A DNA stretch of 43,067 nt from assembly GCA_003282965.1 (NCBI GenBank), contig QBYF01000008.1:1-43067 (forward strand). The letters are read 5' to 3'. Made by a program: the position numbers and the translations under genes. Under the pieces are notes generated by a model that had not been told where the DNA came from, did not search any database, and saw only the letters and a list, made by a program, of their open reading frames with translations. The first letter of the stretch is position 1; every line of letters begins with the position of its first letter. The stretch is from Pelagibacteraceae bacterium AG-325-E13. Lineage in GTDB: Bacteria > Pseudomonadota > Alphaproteobacteria > Pelagibacterales > Pelagibacteraceae. This document shows, one piece after another, positions 15,043 to 36,136 of the stretch.

Positions 15043-15144
15043 TCCAAACTTTCCGCAAATGCCTAAGTTTTTGCGGTGCTCTTGAAAACAAGAGTGTCGA
15101 CACTAGTCAGCGAAGGTTCGCCCACTAGTGCGATAGGTGTTGGA
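15043..15144 (+). ncRNA. Candidate structured RNA or cis-regulatory leader upstream of ffh
   Basis: The sequence just before ffh can form three consecutive hairpins inside a 5-bp closing helix (TCCAA 15043-15047 with TTGGA 15140-15144). Hairpin 1 pairs CCGCAAA (15053-15059) with TTTGCGG (15070-15076). Hairpin 2 pairs CTCTTG (15079-15084) with CAAGAG (15089-15094) around AAAA. Hairpin 3 pairs CACTAGT (15101-15107) with ACTAGTG (15124-15130), extends outward by TCG/CGA with one bulged A, and has an inner GCGA/TCGC stem beyond a CA/CC internal loop. The block is visibly more GC-rich than other gaps here. It does not show the intact SRP RNA apex (GGAA tetraloop with its conserved loops). It could be an ffh leader or an independent small RNA. 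Confidence 0.55.
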
Positions 15145-27095: not shown

Positions 27096-28052
27096 ATGAA
27101 AAAGAAAATTACTTTAATAGGAGCTGGACAAATTGGTGGAACCTTAGCTCACTTAATAGCATTAAAAGGATTAGCTGATGTAGTATTATTTGATGTTGCA
27201 GCTGGTATTGCTAAAGGAAAAGCTTTAGATATTGCTCAATCTTCGCCAGTTTCTGGTTTCAATGTTAGCTTATCAGGAACAGATAATTACGATGATACCA
27301 AAAACTCTGATGTAATAATAATTACGGCAGGGGTTCCTAGAAAACCAGGTATGACTAGGGATGATTTACTTGGTATTAATTTAAAGATTATTAAACAAGT
27401 AGCAGAAGGAATAAAAAAAACCTCTCCTAACGCTTTTGTAATATGTATTACGAACCCCCTGGATGTAATCGTAATGGCACTCCAGAAATTTTCAGGTCTT
27501 CCAAAAAATAAAGTTGTTGGTATGGCAGGTATATTGGACTCTTCCAGATTTATTTACTTTTTATCAGAAGAATTAAAAGTTCCGGTACAAAAAATTAAGT
27601 CATTCGTTCTTGGTGGGCATGGTGATAGCATGGTTGCTATGCTTGGATCAACAGAAGTTGAAGGAAAAAAGATTAATGAACTGGTGAAAGAAAGAAAAAT
27701 ATCTAGAGAAAAATTAGACCAAATAGTTGATAGAACAAAAAAAGGTGGAGCAGAAATTGTAAAATTTTTAGAAAAAGGTTCTGCTTTCTATGCACCCGCA
27801 GCTGCAGGAGTTGAGATGGCTGAATGTTTCTTAAAAGATTTAAAAAAACAACAACCTTGCGCAGTATATCTTAACGGTGAATATGGAGCTAAAGAAATAT
27901 ATGCTGGAGTTCCTGTAATTATTGGTTCTGGCGGAGTTGAAAAGATTATTGAGCTTGAACTATCTACAGATGAGAAAGTAAATTTTGATAAATCTGTTGC
28001 TGCGGTAAGAGATTTGTATAGTGCGGCACAAAAAATTGATCCGTCACTTTAA
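27096..28052 (+). CDS. mdh: Malate dehydrogenase
   Basis: Mdh interconverts malate and oxaloacetate with NAD. The 318-residue protein is of the LDH-like type usual in alphaproteobacteria, with [15 protein letters not shown], the substrate Arg in [24 protein letters not shown], and the catalytic His in [13 protein letters not shown]. It has an AAAAGGA ribosome site before the start. In other alphaproteobacteria mdh is commonly followed by sucCDAB; here a block of glycan-type genes lies between mdh and sucC. No defects are seen. Confidence 0.96.
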
Positions 28053-28078
28053 AAGATCTTAATTTGATACGTTAATTA

Positions 28079-29482
28079 ATGAAAAAAAAAATTTACGATA
28101 TTTTAGTAATAGGTACAGGCCTATCCAGTTTAACATTTATAGACGCTTACTTAGAAAATAATAATTTAATTAATGTTATTTCATTTAATAAAAGTAAAAA
28201 AAAATTTCCACAAATAGATAATAATCATATTTTTAAAATTTTACCTCCACAGATGATTGGAGAAGATAAACAAGTCATGGACTATTTTTCATTAAACAAA
28301 GTTATTATAGATAAAAATACAAAATTCTTCGGATCTCTTGAATTTGGAGGTTTATCAAATTACTGGGGGTTACAAATTGATAAAAATATTGAGAAAGATA
28401 TTTCACATTTGTCAAAAAAAACTCAAAAAAAAATAAAAATATCATTTCACGAAATTTTAAATAAATTAAAATTATTAGGACAAGTTGATAATAAATATAA
28501 AAATATTTTTATTAAAGATAAGTATATAAATCATAAGTTTTTTGAAAAAAACAAAGAATTAATATCAGATGAGCCCTTGTTGGCATTTCAAAAAAAAGGA
28601 AATAAAAAAGGAATTAATCTTAACTTAATTAATGAAGAAAAAGATAAGCTAACCCCATCAAACTTATTTCATAAAAACTTAAAAAATAAAAAAATAATTT
28701 TTCATAATTTTTTTGTAGAAAAAATTCAAAATTGTAAAGAGGGTTTGAAACTTTATTGTTCAAACGGTGAAAAAAAAGAAATATTTATTACTAAAAAACT
28801 TGTTTTAGGGTGTGGAACATTAATAACAACAAAGCTGATAATGGATTATTTTAATATTAAAAGAGAGGTAAAAATTTTTCATCATCCAAGGTTATTTTCG
28901 GTCTATTTTTCTAAAAAAAAGTGGAAAAATAAAATGAAATTTCAGCCTTCTCATTTTCATCTTAAGTTGAAAAAAAATCCCTTACTATTTACAGCAGATT
29001 TTAGGCCTGGAAATAAGATAATAATTGAAGCTATAGTAAAATTTAAAAAATTTTTAAATCCCATAAAATTTTTTTTAAACATTATTAGAGAGCATTTTAT
29101 TTTTTCAAACATATTCTTTAACCCAAAATTTAGTAATTTATACTTGAAGAAAAGAGGAGATACCTATTTAGTTTTTTCGAAAAATAAAAATATCAAAAAA
29201 TTGCTAAAAAAAACAAGTAAAAAAATATTTAATTTTTTAATATCGTCGAAGAAAATTCTACCTTTTTATATAAACTATTTTCCAGGTTTTGGCGCAGATT
29301 TTCATTATTTTGGAACTATACAAGTAGGAAAATCAAAAGATTTATCTGTTAATGAAAAATGTCAAATTAATAAAAAAAAGAATATATATATAGTTGATGG
29401 ATCTGTTTTTAAATTTAATGGAAACAAATATCCCCTTGGTCTTATAATGGCAAATGCAAGAAGAATAGGAAAAGAAATGTAA
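28079..29482 (+). CDS. FAD-dependent oxidoreductase, GMC-like
   Basis: The 467-residue protein opens with the FAD-binding motif DILVIGTGLSSLTFIDAY and ends with NIYIVDGSVFKFNGNKYPLG followed by LIMANARRIG, which matches the C-terminal flavin-site pattern of GMC oxidoreductases. The segment FGSLEFGGLSNYWGLQID resembles the GGxSxxWG motif of that family, and KLVLGCGTLITTKLIM matches its second dinucleotide segment. The middle is Lys-rich and diverged. In this setting it may oxidise a sugar or polyol precursor of a surface glycan; the substrate is unknown. Its stop overlaps the next gene's start by one base (TAATG), so the two are coupled. Confidence 0.72.
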   Translation: MKKKIYDILVIGTGLSSLTFIDAYLENNNLINVISFNKSKKKFPQIDNNHIFKILPPQMIGEDKQVMDYFSLNKVIIDKNTKFFGSLEFGGLSNYWGLQIDKNIEKDISHLSKKTQKKIKISFHEILNKLKLLGQVDNKYKNIFIKDKYINHKFFEKNKELISDEPLLAFQKKGNKKGINLNLINEEKDKLTPSNLFHKNLKNKKIIFHNFFVEKIQNCKEGLKLYCSNGEKKEIFITKKLVLGCGTLITTKLIMDYFNIKREVKIFHHPRLFSVYFSKKKWKNKMKFQPSHFHLKLKKNPLLFTADFRPGNKIIIEAIVKFKKFLNPIKFFLNIIREHFIFSNIFFNPKFSNLYLKKRGDTYLVFSKNKNIKKLLKKTSKKIFNFLISSKKILPFYINYFPGFGADFHYFGTIQVGKSKDLSVNEKCQINKKKNIYIVDGSVFKFNGNKYPLGLIMANARRIGKEM

Positions 29483-30714
29483 TGTTTAGAATATGGATAT
29501 ATTTAAATATCAAAAATTTTTTAAAAAGTTTTTTTTTAAATAACACATCTTTAAAAAAAGAATTTATAGAAAAATATATTTGTAAACAGTCAAAAAAAAA
29601 ATATTTACATCTTTTTAGTCAGTGTCGAGTGGCATTCTATTTTATTCTTATTTATCTAAAAAAAAAAACAAATAAAAACGAGATTATATTATGTGCTTAT
29701 AATCTTCCTGAAATGATTAATGTAGCAAAAAATTTAGGCCTTAAAATAAAGTATTACGATTTAGATTATGAAACTGGATCACCTGTAATAAAAGATATAA
29801 AAAAAAATATTTCAAAAAAAACACTAGCTGTCGTTTTAACTAATATGTTTAATACCTATCATGATGGCGAAGAAATTAAAAATATTTTAAAAAAAAATAA
29901 AATTCCACTAATAGAAGATAATGCTATTTATTTTGACAATTATACTTTAAAAAAAGGAAAAAAATATTTTTCGGGAACCGTTGGTGATTTTTCGATTTAT
30001 AGTTTTAATATAATGAAAAATATTTCTTCTTTTTACGGCGGTGCTGCTAGCACTAATGATATGAAATTTAAAAAATTTTGTATTGAACAAGAAAAGAATT
30101 TAGATACTTTTTTTATTTTTCCCTTGTTAAAACAAATCACAATATTTTTTATTTTAAAAATAATGTCGATAAAATATTTATATAAATATATTTTTAGTTA
30201 TATAATAACTATTGCACATAAATATAAAATAAGTTTTTTATTATTTTTATTTTACCCCTCACTAAAAAATGTAAATTTAAAACTTCCAAAATATTTTCAT
30301 ACAAAGATAAGCACTTTAGCTATCAAAAACACTTATTTACAGCTTAAAGACGAAAAAAAAAGAAAAGAATTATTCATATTTAGAAAAAATCTACATAAAC
30401 TTTATTACGAAAAACTTAAAAATCTAAATAGTCCCAATTTTAATACAATTAAAAAATTTGATTATAATTACCAAAACTACCTTGATTTTCCTGTTCTTGT
30501 TAAGGATAAACAAAATCTTAATTCTTACCTCCTAAAGTACGGCATAGAAATAAGGTTTAGACATTATTACAATTGTGCAAAAATATTTAAAGAAAAAAAA
30601 ATTTATAAAAACGCCGAAAGATACGAAAAAGAGCTAATTTGTTTTCCTGCCCACATTAAGACAAAAAACTCATATATTGATTTCATTGAAACGAAACTAC
30701 GAAATTATTACTAA
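29482..30714 (+). CDS. DegT/DnrJ/EryC1-like PLP aminotransferase with a hydrophobic insertion
   Basis: The 410-residue protein shows the DegT fold-type I pattern: LAVVLTNMFNTYHD, the cofactor Asp in LIEDNAIYFD (D146), DFSIYSFNIMKNISSFYGGA with the PLP lysine at K179, and a C-terminal RHYYNC..ICFPAH end as in sugar aminotransferases. Between residues about 209 and 260 lies a strongly hydrophobic stretch (for example FFIFPLLKQITIFFILKIM and IIT..SFLLFLFYP segments) not usual in DegT enzymes, which suggests membrane attachment. It is likely to aminate a keto-sugar or a related glycan precursor. It is coupled to the FAD oxidoreductase upstream, which could supply the keto substrate. The family call is moderately secure, the role is inferred. 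Confidence 0.68.
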   Translation: MFRIWIYLNIKNFLKSFFLNNTSLKKEFIEKYICKQSKKKYLHLFSQCRVAFYFILIYLKKKTNKNEIILCAYNLPEMINVAKNLGLKIKYYDLDYETGSPVIKDIKKNISKKTLAVVLTNMFNTYHDGEEIKNILKKNKIPLIEDNAIYFDNYTLKKGKKYFSGTVGDFSIYSFNIMKNISSFYGGAASTNDMKFKKFCIEQEKNLDTFFIFPLLKQITIFFILKIMSIKYLYKYIFSYIITIAHKYKISFLLFLFYPSLKNVNLKLPKYFHTKISTLAIKNTYLQLKDEKKRKELFIFRKNLHKLYYEKLKNLNSPNFNTIKKFDYNYQNYLDFPVLVKDKQNLNSYLLKYGIEIRFRHYYNCAKIFKEKKIYKNAERYEKELICFPAHIKTKNSYIDFIETKLRNYY

Positions 30715-30721
30715 AATTTTT

Positions 30722-32296
30722 ATGTTAAAAAAACTTGAGTTAAAAGATTCATTTATTGTAATAACTTTATTTCTATCAGCCTTCCTAATAAATTTTTACG
30801 TTGGGTCTAGAGGAGTTTATCCTGTAGATACCTTTTTTCACTTTGATAATGGATATCGAATTTTACTTGGAGAAAATCCTGTAAAAGACTATTGGATCGT
30901 ACATGGTTTTTTAGTTGACTACCTTCAAGCAATATTTTTTAAATTTTTTGGCTATAATTGGAGTGCATATTTGATCCATGCTTCTTTATTTAATTCAATT
31001 ATAGTTATATTTACATTTTACATTTTTAAGGTGCTTAAAATTAAAAGCTATCTAATTCTCATTCTATTGTTAGGACTGTCAATATTAGCTTACCCAGTTA
31101 GTGGTGTACCGTTTCTTGACTTACATTCAGCTTTCTTTTCACTATTTTCTATTTATTTTTTAATTATTGCTATAATTAAAAATAAAAACTTTTATTGGTT
31201 TTGGGTAGCGTTTCTTCTTTGTGTTGCATTTTTTTCAAAACAAGTGCCTGCCGCATACGTAATACTTGGAGTAAGTCTTATAAATTTCATTTTGGCATTT
31301 AACAAAAAAAATTTAATGATAACTATTTGGTATTTTCTAGGGGCATTTTCATTTTTAATATTATTATTAATTTTTTTACTGTATAAAAATATTAATTTAA
31401 ATGATTTTATAGTACAAATTTTCCTTTTTCCTCAATCGATTGGCACGAACAGATATGGAGATTATAATTTAAGCTTAAAAAATATTATATTAGATTATAA
31501 GTTTATATACGTTTTTATATTATTCATCTTATCAATCAATATTTTAAATTTCTTTAAAAAGAAAGATTTTATTAAATCAAAAAGTTTTTTAATTTTTGTT
31601 ATAATTTTAACTTATTCATCATCACTAATTATTCATCAAATTTATACAAAAAATCAGGTATTTATTTTTTTCTTGATCCCGATATTAGCAGGTTTTTCAA
31701 TTTACTTTTTAAAAGATATAAATTTCAAAAATAAAAAATTAACTATTTTATTACTATTTTTAGTTTTTTTGTTTGCCACATTTAAATACAATAATAGGTT
31801 TAATGTAGAGAGAAAGTTTCATGAACTGTCTAATGTGAACATAAATAATTCTATTAAAGTAAATTTATTTAATAATAAATTTAAAGGAATAAATTGGATA
31901 TCTCCTTATTATAAAAATCCTGAAGATGAGATAGAAAAAATTAATAAATTTTTCAATATATTACTTAATGATAAACAAAAAAAAATGGTTATTACAGAAT
32001 ATAATTTTTTTTCATTATTGTTGAATGAAAAACTTTATAGTCCAAGTAGATCATATGATTATATAAGTTATCCTAAGAAGGACACTAAATATTTTAAATT
32101 ATATCAAAAACATCTAGTAGAATTAATAAAAAAAAATAATATTAAACATTTGTATTTATTTGAACCAAAAAAAATAATTAAATCTAGAATGAACCATTTA
32201 GTATATGATTATATTTCTGAGGGTTGTTTTCAGGTTATTAACATAAGTGAAAAAACAAAATTATTAAAGATTATCAATTGTAGTGAATTACAATAA
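30722..32296 (+). CDS. Polytopic membrane protein, GT-C (family 39-like) glycosyltransferase candidate
   Basis: The 524-residue product has about ten or more membrane helices. The first outer loop has YPVDTFFHFDNGYRILLGE with acidic residues at D36 and D42, then DYWIVHGFLVDYLQAIFFKF, a layout common to GT-C glycosyltransferases of the GT39/ArnT type, which use a lipid-linked sugar on the periplasmic side. The C-terminal part (after about residue 350) is a soluble-looking domain with few helices. ATG 30722 is preferred over a TTG at 30677, which would lie inside the upstream gene. It is 7 bases after the DegT-like gene. The exact donor and acceptor are unknown. Confidence 0.65.
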   Translation: MLKKLELKDSFIVITLFLSAFLINFYVGSRGVYPVDTFFHFDNGYRILLGENPVKDYWIVHGFLVDYLQAIFFKFFGYNWSAYLIHASLFNSIIVIFTFYIFKVLKIKSYLILILLLGLSILAYPVSGVPFLDLHSAFFSLFSIYFLIIAIIKNKNFYWFWVAFLLCVAFFSKQVPAAYVILGVSLINFILAFNKKNLMITIWYFLGAFSFLILLLIFLLYKNINLNDFIVQIFLFPQSIGTNRYGDYNLSLKNIILDYKFIYVFILFILSINILNFFKKKDFIKSKSFLIFVIILTYSSSLIIHQIYTKNQVFIFFLIPILAGFSIYFLKDINFKNKKLTILLLFLVFLFATFKYNNRFNVERKFHELSNVNINNSIKVNLFNNKFKGINWISPYYKNPEDEIEKINKFFNILLNDKQKKMVITEYNFFSLLLNEKLYSPSRSYDYISYPKKDTKYFKLYQKHLVELIKKNNIKHLYLFEPKKIIKSRMNHLVYDYISEGCFQVINISEKTKLLKIINCSELQ

Positions 32297-32325
32297 TTAT
32301 GCTTGAACATTTTAAAGTAAAAAAA

Positions 32326-32589
32326 TTAATTATTCCCAAGCTCTTTTTGAATTTTATTTATAAAATTATTTAATAAATCTTTATCTTCATTATTTATTAA
32401 ATCCTTTTTTTCAGTAGCATTTTTAATTTCCGATCTCAATTTTTGTTTTATAGTATCGATATATTCCTTAGAAGTGAGATGATCAATTCTTCTCTCAATT
32501 GTTTTTTGTGCATATGTAAACGTAAGCTTAAAACCTATAATAATTAAAAAAAAAATTATTAACGATTTATAAATGAATATTTTCATCAT
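32326..32589 (-). CDS. Small membrane-anchored protein with a charged helical tail (unrecognised)
   Basis: This 87-residue protein begins MMKIFIYKSLIIFFLIIIGF, forming one N-terminal membrane helix (or uncleaved signal) at about residues 4-28, followed by a highly charged, probably helical region (KTIERRIDHL, KQKLRSEIKN, LINNEDKDLLNN). I do not recognise the family. Its start overlaps the stop of the upstream glycosyltransferase gene by 4 bases, so it is probably translated with it and may be an accessory subunit. A second possible start is the next Met at 32586. The stop lies 29 bases from the end of the convergent plus-strand gene. Confidence 0.72.
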   Translation of the reverse strand: MMKIFIYKSLIIFFLIIIGFKLTFTYAQKTIERRIDHLTSKEYIDTIKQKLRSEIKNATEKKDLINNEDKDLLNNFINKIQKELGNN

Positions 32590-34223
32590 TTCATTTTCCT
32601 ATGCACCTCATATATTAAAATTCCATCAATAAAGTGCTGTTTATAAAGTTTAAAACTATCATCTAAAGAAAATTTGTCACTAAGTTTAACATTTACATTA
32701 TATATTTTATTAGAATAAACATAATCAGCATTTTTAATATCATCATATACAAAAACAATACGTTTTTGGTCTATCTCTGGCAATAATTCTTTCATTCTCC
32801 ATAACGGATACCAAGAATTAATACCTATTTTAATTTTATTACTTTTATCGTTCATCACAACTTCGCGTAAAAATTTAATTCCAGATAATCCAGTAAAATC
32901 TATTTCAAATTTATTTTTAAATTTATTTGATAGTAATTCATTAAAATAAAGAGACTGGTAAGGGTGATATATATAAATCTTATAAATATTAAATAAAGAA
33001 GTTACTGATAAAACTACTACTAAAATATTAATGTATTTTTTTAATTTTGGATAAATAAAAAATAAACTAAGAAAATAAATTGAAAAATAAATAAAAAAGC
33101 AATTAAGGAAATAGAAAATACGCCAACTATTATAATGTTTTGTAGCAAAAAATACTCCAATAACACTTAAAATTACAAAGGTTATTAAAATAAAAAAATC
33201 TTTTTTTTCGTTATTATTATTCCACAAATCGTAGTTTGATTTTGATTTTTCAATGGAGAATAATTTTAAAATATAAACTTTAGCTAATAGAAAAAATCCA
33301 ATTAAAAATAATGAAAAATTTATTATCGGAGTTGAAATAAAGACCCATAAGGGTAGATAATGAAAAGGAACTAATTCAGTATTATAGAATTCATCATTGA
33401 AGTAAATGAGAGTTGGGCCAAAAGTTTGTAAATTGCTTAAGAGGTATAAAAATTTTTCTAGAGGATTAATCCAAAGATATGGCCAATGTAAAATTAAAAA
33501 TAAAATATAAAAAAAAATATAAATTAAAATCTTATTAATAATTTTAAAATCACCCTTATTTGATAATATAGACAAAAAATATATAAATAAAAAAGTGAAA
33601 GGAAAAATAAGCCCAAACAATCTGGTAGATGTAGCGATAGACGAAAAAATTGCCAATAAAATTATATTTTTGATATTAAAATTTTCAAAAGTTTTAAAAA
33701 TAAAAAAAGTAGATATTATAAAAAAAGTTAAAAAAACAAGGTCTTTATTATTTTGGAAGCTATCACCAAATATCCTAGGTGTAATAATCAATAGAAAACA
33801 TCCTGCTAGTGACAAAAATTTATTATTAAATCTATTTAAAAGTGTTTTGTAAAAAAAAATTATACCTACATAAAAATAACAAAAAGTTAAGAAATGTCTC
33901 ATTTCGTACATTTGAATTGGTTCATTAAGAGAAAAAATAATTTCAATAATTGCAGCAGGAACATCAAAAATTATCCCATATACATCACTCCATGGTTCTG
34001 TAAAACTTGAAGATAAAACTAATTTTTCATTTGCTATAAGAGAAATTTTTTCTAAACCAAAAAAATTGGATAAATATTCAAGCCAGTATAATCCACTACG
34101 TCTTTGAAAAGTTTCATCGATATTAAAACCATAATCTTTGTAAATCGAAAATCCTATGAGAAAATAGATTGAAAAAAAGATGTAATGACAATTAGATAAT
34201 AATCTATTAGATATGGTCTTCAT
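32586..34223 (-). CDS. GT-C glycosyltransferase, family 39/PMT-like membrane protein
   Basis: The 545-residue protein has about eleven hydrophobic helices. Its first periplasmic loop has the DE pair typical of GT-C enzymes (YGFNIDETFQRR, D36 and E37), and later segments include TPRIFGDSFQNNKDLVFL, LHWPYLWINPLEKF and YHPYQSLYFNELLS, the last being common in PMT/GT39-like bacterial proteins. Such enzymes move a sugar from a polyprenyl phosphate carrier to lipid, glycan or protein. It is divergent from the FkbM gene (46 bases between starts) and overlaps the small membrane gene downstream. The gene is very AT-rich. Substrates cannot be read from the sequence. Confidence 0.75.
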   Translation of the reverse strand: MKTISNRLLSNCHYIFFSIYFLIGFSIYKDYGFNIDETFQRRSGLYWLEYLSNFFGLEKISLIANEKLVLSSSFTEPWSDVYGIIFDVPAAIIEIIFSLNEPIQMYEMRHFLTFCYFYVGIIFFYKTLLNRFNNKFLSLAGCFLLIITPRIFGDSFQNNKDLVFLTFFIISTFFIFKTFENFNIKNIILLAIFSSIATSTRLFGLIFPFTFLFIYFLSILSNKGDFKIINKILIYIFFYILFLILHWPYLWINPLEKFLYLLSNLQTFGPTLIYFNDEFYNTELVPFHYLPLWVFISTPIINFSLFLIGFFLLAKVYILKLFSIEKSKSNYDLWNNNNEKKDFFILITFVILSVIGVFFATKHYNSWRIFYFLNCFFIYFSIYFLSLFFIYPKLKKYINILVVVLSVTSLFNIYKIYIYHPYQSLYFNELLSNKFKNKFEIDFTGLSGIKFLREVVMNDKSNKIKIGINSWYPLWRMKELLPEIDQKRIVFVYDDIKNADYVYSNKIYNVNVKLSDKFSLDDSFKLYKQHFIDGILIYEVHRKMK

Positions 34224-34268
34224 AAACTTTAATTATAAACAAATTTAAGTATAAATAAATTAAATAAT
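34224..34268. promoter_or_regulatory. Short divergent promoter gap between the glycosyltransferase and fkbM genes
   Basis: These 45 bases separate two divergent starts and must carry both promoters if each gene is independently expressed. They are almost purely A and T, with AT-rich -10-like words (for example TATAAA and TAAAT), and no clear -35 can be singled out. The plus-side promoter matters because it may also drive sucC, whose start overlaps the fkbM stop. Confidence 0.35.
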
Positions 34269-34973
34269 ATGAAATTTTTTAAAATCTTGGCTATCTTCTT
34301 TTTTGATATTCTAGATCATTTCCATCAAAAAAAAATTTTAAATTTTTTTCAATATAAAAAAATTAAAATAAATTCTATAATTGATATTGGAGCGCATAAA
34401 GGTAAATATACAGATTTATTTTTAAGAAATTATTCTATAAATTATGCCTTATTAATTGAGCCACAAAAAAAATACTTTCATACGCTCAAAGAAAAATATA
34501 AAAATAAAAAAAAAATTAAGATATTAGATTGTGCAGTATCTAATAAGAATAAAAAAAGTTTTTTTAATATAAATCATCACGATCTTACCTCTTCATTGAA
34601 TACAATAAATTTTAAAAATAATTTTTTGGTTTATAAGTCAAAACTGTTTGGAATACAGTCTGATAAAATGATAAGAGATAAAGTAGCCATTAAAACAAAG
34701 ACTATTAAATCAATTTTAGGTAATTTAAAAAAAAAAATAGATTTGGTGAAAATTGACACTGAGGGTCATGAGCTAGAAGTGTTGAAAGGTTGTGGCAATG
34801 TGCTTAAAAATTTTAAAATCATTTTAATAGAATTTAGAAATGACAATCATTATTTGAACTATTATCCAAAAAAAGTACATAAATTATTGATAAAAAATAA
34901 TTTTTATAAGTTAAAAGTATTTAAATTTCCATTTACAACTTGGGAAGATAGAATATACATAAAGAAAATATGA
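34269..34973 (+). CDS. FkbM family SAM-dependent methyltransferase
   Basis: The 234-residue protein has the FkbM pattern: the SAM-binding motif SIIDIGAHKGKYTDLFL (D39, G41), an acidic residue ending strand 2 in LLIEPQKKYF, and the family-defining DLVKIDTEGHELEVLKG, then IILIEFRND. FkbM enzymes usually O-methylate sugars or small molecules; in a glycan locus, methylation of a surface sugar is likely but not proven. It is divergent from the glycosyltransferase gene. Its TGA overlaps the sucC start codon (ATGA at 34970-34973), so a TCA-cycle gene is translationally coupled to it. Confidence 0.86.
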   Translation: MKFFKILAIFFFDILDHFHQKKILNFFQYKKIKINSIIDIGAHKGKYTDLFLRNYSINYALLIEPQKKYFHTLKEKYKNKKKIKILDCAVSNKNKKSFFNINHHDLTSSLNTINFKNNFLVYKSKLFGIQSDKMIRDKVAIKTKTIKSILGNLKKKIDLVKIDTEGHELEVLKGCGNVLKNFKIILIEFRNDNHYLNYYPKKVHKLLIKNNFYKLKVFKFPFTTWEDRIYIKKI

Positions 34974-36136
34974 ATATTCACGAACATCAAGCCAAAGAAA
35001 TTTTAAAAGAATTTGGTGCGCCAGTTTCAAAGGGTGTTGTAATTTTTTCTCTTGATGAAATAAAAAAAAAAATAATCAAACTACAAACTAAGGAATTTGT
35101 TTTAAAAGCCCAAATACATGCTGGCGGTAGAGGAAAAGCTGGTGGGGTTAAGTTAATCAAAGATATCTCCAATTTAGAAAAAGAGGCTAAAGCAATGATG
35201 GGCAAAACCCTTATAACTCATCAAACTGGTCCAGAGGGCAAAGAAGTTAAGAGATTATATATTGAAGAAGCATCTGACATTTCAAAAGAATTTTATCTAT
35301 CCTGTTTAATTGATAGAGAGTCATCTAAAGTTGCTTTTATTAGTAGTACAGAGGGCGGTATGGATATAGAAAAAGTAGCTTCTGAAACACCTGATAAAAT
35401 TAAGACTCACAAATTAGAATTAAAAGATGATGGACCAAATCAAGAAGAAATAAACAAGATTATATCTATATTTGAATTTAATGAGGAACAAAAAAAAATT
35501 GCATCAAAGCTAATTATATCTCTTTACAATATAACAATTAAAAAAGATGCAACTTTAATAGAAATTAATCCTTTAATAATAACAAAATCTAATAAATTAA
35601 TTTGTTTAGATGCCAAAATGAATTTTGATGATAATGCAATTTTTAGAAGACCAGAAATTCTTAAGTTAAGAGACTTAAACGAGGAGGATCCTGCTGAAAT
35701 TGAAGCTAGTAAACATGAACTTGCATATATAAAATTAAACGGCTCTATAGGATGTATGGTAAACGGAGCAGGTTTAGCTATGGCTACTATGGATATAATA
35801 AAATTGTATGGAAAAGAACCAGCAAATTTTTTAGATGTTGGTGGAGGAGCCTCTAAAGAAAAAGTATCTGCAGCTTTTAAACTTATTTTGTCTGATAAAA
35901 ATGTAAAAGGTATTTTAATAAATATATTTGGTGGAATTATGCGATGTGATGTACTCGCTCAAGGAGTAGTAGATGCCGCAAAAGAGATTAGCTTATCTAT
36001 TCCTCTTGTTGTGAGATTAGCTGGAACCAATTTTAAAGAGGGTAAAGAAATATTAGATAAATCAAATTTAAAAATTTTATCAGCTTCAGATTTAAATGAT
36101 GCTGCAAAAAAAATTGTAGATTCTATAAAAAAGTAG
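34970..36136 (+). CDS. sucC: Succinyl-CoA synthetase beta subunit SucC
   Basis: SucC forms the ATP-grasp subunit of succinate-CoA ligase, making ATP or GTP from succinyl-CoA. The 388-residue protein begins MNIHEHQAKEILKEFG and has QIHAGGRGKAGGVKL, IEINPLIIT, LDAKMNFDDNA and NIFGGIMRCDVLAQG. The start overlaps the FkbM stop in ATGA. The stop TAG is directly followed by the sucD ATG with no gap. The N-terminal sequence is standard, so the start is secure despite the odd upstream neighbour. Confidence 0.97.
   Translation: MNIHEHQAKEILKEFGAPVSKGVVIFSLDEIKKKIIKLQTKEFVLKAQIHAGGRGKAGGVKLIKDISNLEKEAKAMMGKTLITHQTGPEGKEVKRLYIEEASDISKEFYLSCLIDRESSKVAFISSTEGGMDIEKVASETPDKIKTHKLELKDDGPNQEEINKIISIFEFNEEQKKIASKLIISLYNITIKKDATLIEINPLIITKSNKLICLDAKMNFDDNAIFRRPEILKLRDLNEEDPAEIEASKHELAYIKLNGSIGCMVNGAGLAMATMDIIKLYGKEPANFLDVGGGASKEKVSAAFKLILSDKNVKGILINIFGGIMRCDVLAQGVVDAAKEISLSIPLVVRLAGTNFKEGKEILDKSNLKILSASDLNDAAKKIVDSIKK

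Follow-up and report, generated by a model that had tools for sequence, protein, structure and literature searches.

We analysed a 43,067-nt stretch of contig QBYF01000008.1 (assembly GCA_003282965.1) from Pelagibacteraceae bacterium AG-325-E13, hereafter the window, whose numbering is used for all coordinates. In this window 6,917 bp separate mdh, the malate dehydrogenase gene, from sucC, which encodes the beta subunit of succinyl-CoA ligase, and the interval is filled by six intact open reading frames (ORFs) in mixed orientation, here called the island. An earlier reading of the sequence (the original prediction) had described six AT-rich, mixed-orientation genes over 6.9 kb at this position, and both the ORFs and the GC content bear this description out. 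The flanks, genes and other features are as follows.

27096..28052, + strand: mdh, malate dehydrogenase, the left conserved flank (NCBIfam NF004863, E 1e-130; relatives 71-100% identical)
28079..29482, + strand: GMC-oxidoreductase-like, flavin adenine dinucleotide (FAD)-dependent protein, proposed sugar hydroxyl oxidase (PF05199 below cut-off, plus conserved motifs)
29482..30714, + strand: DegT/DnrJ/EryC1-type sugar aminotransferase (PF01041, E 1.2e-21; pyridoxal phosphate (PLP) lysine present)
30722..32296, + strand: GT-C integral-membrane glycosyltransferase, the "anchor" of the hotspot described below (PF13231 weak; AlphaFold2 (AF2) model and Foldseek)
32297..32325, no strand: inferred internal recombination junction (gene-by-gene switch of best match)
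32326..32589, - strand: 87-amino-acid (aa) protein anchored by a single N-terminal membrane segment; accompanies the second GT-C (co-occurrence)
32586..34223, - strand: second GT-C glycosyltransferase (PF13231, E 8e-6; AF2 and Foldseek)
34269..34973, + strand: FkbM-family methyltransferase (TIGR01444, E 1.9e-22; PF05050, E 1.1e-18)
34970..34973, + strand: ATGA overlap of the FkbM stop with the sucC start, confirmed in the sequence as originally predicted
34970..36136, + strand: sucC, succinyl-CoA ligase beta subunit, the right conserved flank (NF001913, E 1e-162)

The anchor starts at the ATG at 30722, and the longer TTG start at 30677 is unneeded. The GC content of the interval (0.18-0.25) is lower than that of its flanks (0.28-0.40). 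This difference is confined to codon positions 1 and 2, with a third-position GC of 0.16-0.18 in the island genes and 0.19 +/- 0.03 in the flanks; A/T-coded residues are therefore abundant in the proteins, and codon usage is host-like. The AT-richness, previously taken as a sign of foreign DNA, thus failed the codon-use check, and a foreign origin inferred from composition was ruled out.

No tRNA, Rfam RNA or mobile-element family was found inside the interval, where candidate border repeats were only short, imperfect, A/T-rich matches at chance level, and scans of the window and of island families detected neither an integrase nor a transposase. The predicted absence of a visible recombinase or repeat therefore stands. 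The island genes matched none of the PADLOC defence models.

Variation and probable exchange at the mdh-sucC site

We scanned 169 genomes of the same genus for mdh and sucC and kept the intervals in which both genes lie on one contig (n = 95 including the window, one genome per species). The gap ranged from 0 to 8.5 kb in length. Four sites were empty, with 0-8 bp between the genes (G069, which is AG-905-B19, G131, G152 and G163), and that of G025 held a methyltransferase alone; the anchor was present in 90 of the 95. The intervals showed 35 layouts, and every gene family keeps one constant strand. The 87-aa protein occurred in 26 intervals, always adjoining the second GT-C on the same strand (this GT-C was present in 34), and a GT2 family resembling GtrB and ArnC was found in 36 other intervals. 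Since the pattern is seen again in ~90 independent genomes, it is not an assembly artefact, and the near-universal anchor identifies the site as a fixed locus whose alleles and modules can be exchanged, as opposed to a single insertion event.

Consistent with the original prediction, the usual order is mdh directly before sucC. All 19 named SAR11 loci extending to mdh show it (18 from other clades plus the empty-site AG-905-B19), as do 31 of 40 other loci in which both genes could be placed. The two genes are adjacent in four complete genomes of the sister genera g6 and g7 and are spaced by about ten bases in another family, f2. In a third sister genus, g284, the site is filled by the same families (G701, G637 and G761), and the anchor is otherwise rare in our samples of the order and class. 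Taken together, these results establish the mdh-sucC gap as a genus-wide hotspot that is common to the sister genus g284. Relatives do not all carry the same six genes, as the 35 layouts reveal, and the families are of glycan type, in agreement with the predicted variable, glycan-type locus within a run of tricarboxylic acid (TCA) cycle genes.

Two genomes stood apart in this comparison. G121 has two mdh-sucC copies (contigs C26 and C12), one filled and one nearly empty, that share ~69% identity, which probably reflects mixed cells or contamination. In G199, of the same genus and 98% complete, matches to mdh, sucC and the anchor were all unlisted, and the assembly may lack this region.

We then compared the history of the island with that of its flanks. 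The Spearman correlation between anchor identity and flank identity was -0.03 (3,655 pairs), against 0.88 and 0.92 for mdh and sucC themselves, and the median anchor identity between genomes was 35%. At least 59 layout changes were counted on the flank tree of 91 genomes. For the window, a grouping with its flank kin was rejected by the anchor data (p 0.001), and one with its island kin by the flank data (p 0.006), in approximately unbiased (AU) tests. Gene-by-gene best matches placed the GMC-like gene, DegT and the anchor of the window nearest to G144/G034/G061, and the 87-aa protein, the second GT-C and FkbM nearest to G185/G201/G043; the island of the window thus appears to be a mosaic of two haplotypes, with a junction near 32.3 kb. 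In the pair G058 and G059, sucC is 97% identical and the islands differ. DNA identity between the two declines from 0.92 to 0.70 over ~5 kb to the end of mdh and is ~0.9 again from the start of sucC, a drop that has the appearance of a homologous-recombination footprint. The ratio of nonsynonymous to synonymous divergence (dN/dS) of the anchor, 0.11-0.19, indicates purifying selection and hence a functional gene.

These correlations, layout changes, AU tests and the G058/G059 footprint uphold homologous replacement through the conserved flanks, originally proposed as the simplest explanation, as the best one. It is likely that the locus is a replacement-type flexible surface-glycan island at a fixed mdh-sucC site, composed of a GT-C core and sugar-tailoring enzymes and exchanged by homologous recombination. 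Several observations weigh against this reading. The counts of change are inflated, as 39 of 88 branches of the flank tree fall below a support of 80, and the flank footprint was observed in a single pair. With one genome per species, no pair had islands clearly more alike than their flanks, so that no recent exchange between species was seen, and part of the pattern could be the sorting of old alleles. The GMC-like protein of the window scores 22.9 bits, below the Pfam cut-off of 24.6, and has no match in the PDB; nor was a polymerase or flippase found in the island.

The sorting of old alleles can be extended to the whole pattern, as ancestral island haplotypes that were sorted with loss of modules and never exchanged between lineages. 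This explanation fits the islands being never clearly more similar than the flanks, the host-like third-position GC, and the close pairs, which share the same haplotype and have similar synonymous divergence in island and flanks, as expected from vertical descent at short range. However, the AU tests and the 59 layout changes would demand many parallel losses, the mosaic island of the window is not accounted for, and G058 and G059 differ in island and mdh even though their sucC genes are 97% alike. Moreover, most other SAR11 genera are empty at this site, so the ancestor would have had to hold all haplotypes at one position. We consider sorting without exchange unlikely.

Predicted enzymes of the island

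Neither of the two GT-C families (anchor and second GT-C) nor the GMC family had a credible sequence relative in profile searches of the PDB, and a fold comparison was therefore needed for both GT-Cs. The AF2 model of the anchor has a predicted local distance difference test score (pLDDT) of 92.6, and its best Foldseek matches were OST, Pmt4, ALG12, PglB and ArnT. GT-C enzymes have a membrane fold of many helices and keep an acidic residue in their first outer loop; in the anchor, D56 is invariant and D36 nearly so. The second GT-C (pLDDT 87.4) matched OST, ArnT, ALG12 and ALG9. The donors of OST, Pmt4, ALG12, PglB, ArnT and ALG9 are all polyprenyl- or dolichyl-linked.

PF05199 was detected in 7 of 10 members of the GMC-like family (best E 1.3e-4; window 1.4e-4), and an N-terminal GxG dinucleotide motif, HxxGT and the DGS...N...P blocks are invariant or nearly so across 10 homologues. 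This assignment is weak, and we name the FAD protein "GMC-like" only. The DegT protein scored 77.9 bits against a cut-off of 19.8 and aligns to the sugar aminotransferase 7b0m with the SFN..K motif and PLP lysine kept. Of the 10 intervals with the GMC-DegT pair, 8 also carry a GNAT or a formyltransferase-like gene. The window genome has its GNAT gene at C12:13310, where it forms a pair with a second GMC gene (L208 7296-9324) near the tmRNA and lacks a DegT; the related G139 locus (L189) has DegT, and the DegT of the window may therefore serve both GMC genes. The GT2 family matches GtrB (sll0501), ArnC and DPMS, and in the window genome it is found outside the island at C1:64301, adjoining a membrane protein, possibly another GT-C.

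Other genomes carry different enzyme pairs at the site. A DprE1-like oxidase occurs with a DprE2-like short-chain dehydrogenase/reductase (SDR), a reductase, in G032, and with an aminotransferase of class-III type, a class read from sequence alone, in G172 and G202. That a single site holds three solutions of the form "oxidise, then aminate or reduce" points to sugar tailoring, probably of lipid-linked sugars. The original prediction had suggested synthesis and export of a surface glycan or lipid; the glycan-type genes agree with the synthesis, whereas the export part was not borne out, with no exporter, flippase or polymerase among the six genes.

It could be argued that the GMC, DegT and GT-C genes instead make a small secreted or lipid metabolite, given that the GMC family is without a PDB relative and that both GT-Cs match at the level of fold only. 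However, GT-C, GT2 (GtrB/ArnC-like), FkbM and formyl- or acetyltransferase-like genes are repeatedly found together, in the manner of amino-sugar pathways, and a metabolite of this kind appears quite improbable.

Related cassettes and the sucC junction

Members of the same families were also observed at other sites. In related genomes, compact clusters of either anchor and methyltransferase or GT2-GMC-DegT-GNAT lie beside tRNA genes (L183, L190, L182, L184-L188 and L214), for instance adjoining the nuo operon. At its end, the viral contig IMGVR_UViG_3300006565_000104 (L209 1-592) encodes 196 aa of the anchor GT-C, which share 53% identity with the island copies and break off ahead of the C-terminal domain; the contig also encodes a MazG-like protein, a DNA methyltransferase and phrog_455. 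It is possible that this fragment is a phage-carried surface-modifying gene. Neither FkbM nor the viral fragment of the anchor was found in isolate phages. Elsewhere in the window, an ffh small RNA (RF01793) lies at 15086-15138 (+), immediately before ffh.

Additive insertion at the mdh-sucC site through an integrase, a transposon or a phage would be in line with the tRNA-side cassettes of related genomes and with the anchor fragment on one viral contig. However, the window offers no tRNA, integrase, transposase or boundary repeat at the island, and the anchor occupies 90 of the 95 intervals on a constant strand, with variation that is allelic. Such an insertion is very improbable.

The original prediction had further linked the translation of sucC to the glycan locus. 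Over 93 genomes, the genes preceding sucC belong to nine families, and lie on either strand at -4 to +133 bp, with mdh in this position where the site is empty; further 4-bp overlaps occur in the window. This link was accordingly not supported, and the ATGA overlap is incidental, one state among many. A promoter scan for sucC was uninformative, with fewer sites than in shuffled sequences. A co-regulated unit that ties glycan synthesis to TCA flux by translational coupling, for which the overlap in the window and a second case in G173 might speak, is the least credible explanation and can be set aside, as about half of the other upstream neighbours of sucC are on the opposite strand and very short gene spacing is general in the window.

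Proposed mechanism and known surface-glycan systems

To return to the replacement-type island, its modules differed in how closely they follow the anchor. Modules 6, 7, 8 and 9 required 4, 5, 4 and 2 changes on the anchor tree; the flank tree required 14, 14, 10 and 8, and shuffled labels on the anchor tree gave means of 22, 15, 13 and 10. The right-hand modules 3, 4 and 5 were linked to the anchor more loosely (11, 13 and 13 changes). Anchor alleles thus tend to co-travel with particular tailoring genes, a joint retention that points to specificity of the anchor for the modified sugar. We tentatively propose that the site acts as a specificity locus. Each "reader" allele of the conserved GT-C would be inherited jointly with the sugar-modifying genes that match it, so that SAR11 cells would exchange complete glycotypes of only 2-4 genes and gain a second phage-facing identity that reassorts independently of the O-chain cluster.

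In the mechanism that we envisage, the anchor would move a sugar from a polyprenyl-phosphate carrier onto a surface glycan or lipid at the periplasmic side, a role suggested by its modelled fold, with donor and acceptor putative. The tailoring enzymes around it would set the chemistry of the transferred sugar. In the window, the GMC-like FAD oxidase followed by DegT could convert a hydroxyl to a ketone and then to an amine, and the second GT-C with its 87-aa partner, plus FkbM as an O-methyltransferase, would complete the tailoring set. GT2, as a polyprenyl-phosphate sugar synthase, and the N-acetyltransferase, which accompany these genes in other genomes, would be provided from elsewhere in the window genome. 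Whole or half islands would be swapped between cells by recombination through mdh, sucC and internal genes, and the likely benefit, by analogy with islands of this class, is an altered surface toward phages or grazers.

SAR11 bacteria are among the most abundant marine cell types, and phage pressure is presumed to be linked with their large, recombining diversity. The mdh-sucC locus appears to be a small additional "identity" locus alongside the known O-antigen cluster, and implies that a central metabolic gene run can act as homologous arms for surface variation. Because it is compact, with a conserved core and few modules, single-cell genomes and long reads can capture it in full; how it reassorts against the O-chain cluster, and how it is linked to phage sensitivity, are then directly measurable.

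The locus resembles the replacement flexible genomic islands described by Lopez-Perez et al. 2014 (PMC4033161) in its constant location, surface-structure genes, strain-variable content, lack of integrases and raised divergence at the borders. It differs from them in that nearly every allele retains the anchor and the modules recombine internally, that it measures only 1-8 kb inside a TCA gene run, and that near-identical islands in divergent backgrounds were not found in data of one genome per species. With the SAR11 O-chain cluster OBC/HVR2, which sits between the 23S and 5S rRNA genes and has a GC content of 23.8% versus 29.4% for the genome (PMC2217521, PMC11898729), it shares low GC, surface-glycan genes, many types and the SAR11 host. 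Unlike OBC/HVR2, it occupies another site, is ~10 times smaller, has a conserved GT-C and carries no O-antigen export genes; the main texts of PMC2217521 and PMC11898729 mention neither malate dehydrogenase nor succinyl-CoA genes.

The combination of a GtrB/ArnC-family GT2 with a GT-C, and the amino-sugar and formyl or acetyl tailoring in related islands, recall the ArnC/ArnT and Gtr (GtrA-GtrB-GtrC) systems, although the island of the window lacks a GT2 and none of the island genes was recognised as a GtrA-like flippase. The DprE1-like oxidase and DprE2-like SDR of G032 recall the mycobacterial DprE1/DprE2 epimerase, a precedent for oxidising a lipid-linked sugar; the window, in contrast, has an unrelated GMC-like oxidase and an aminotransferase in place of the reductase. 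Among the papers searched, none was found to describe an mdh-sucC hotspot. The concept of the replacement flexible island is known (PMC4033161), whereas the site, the retained anchor and the linkage between anchor and modules are new.

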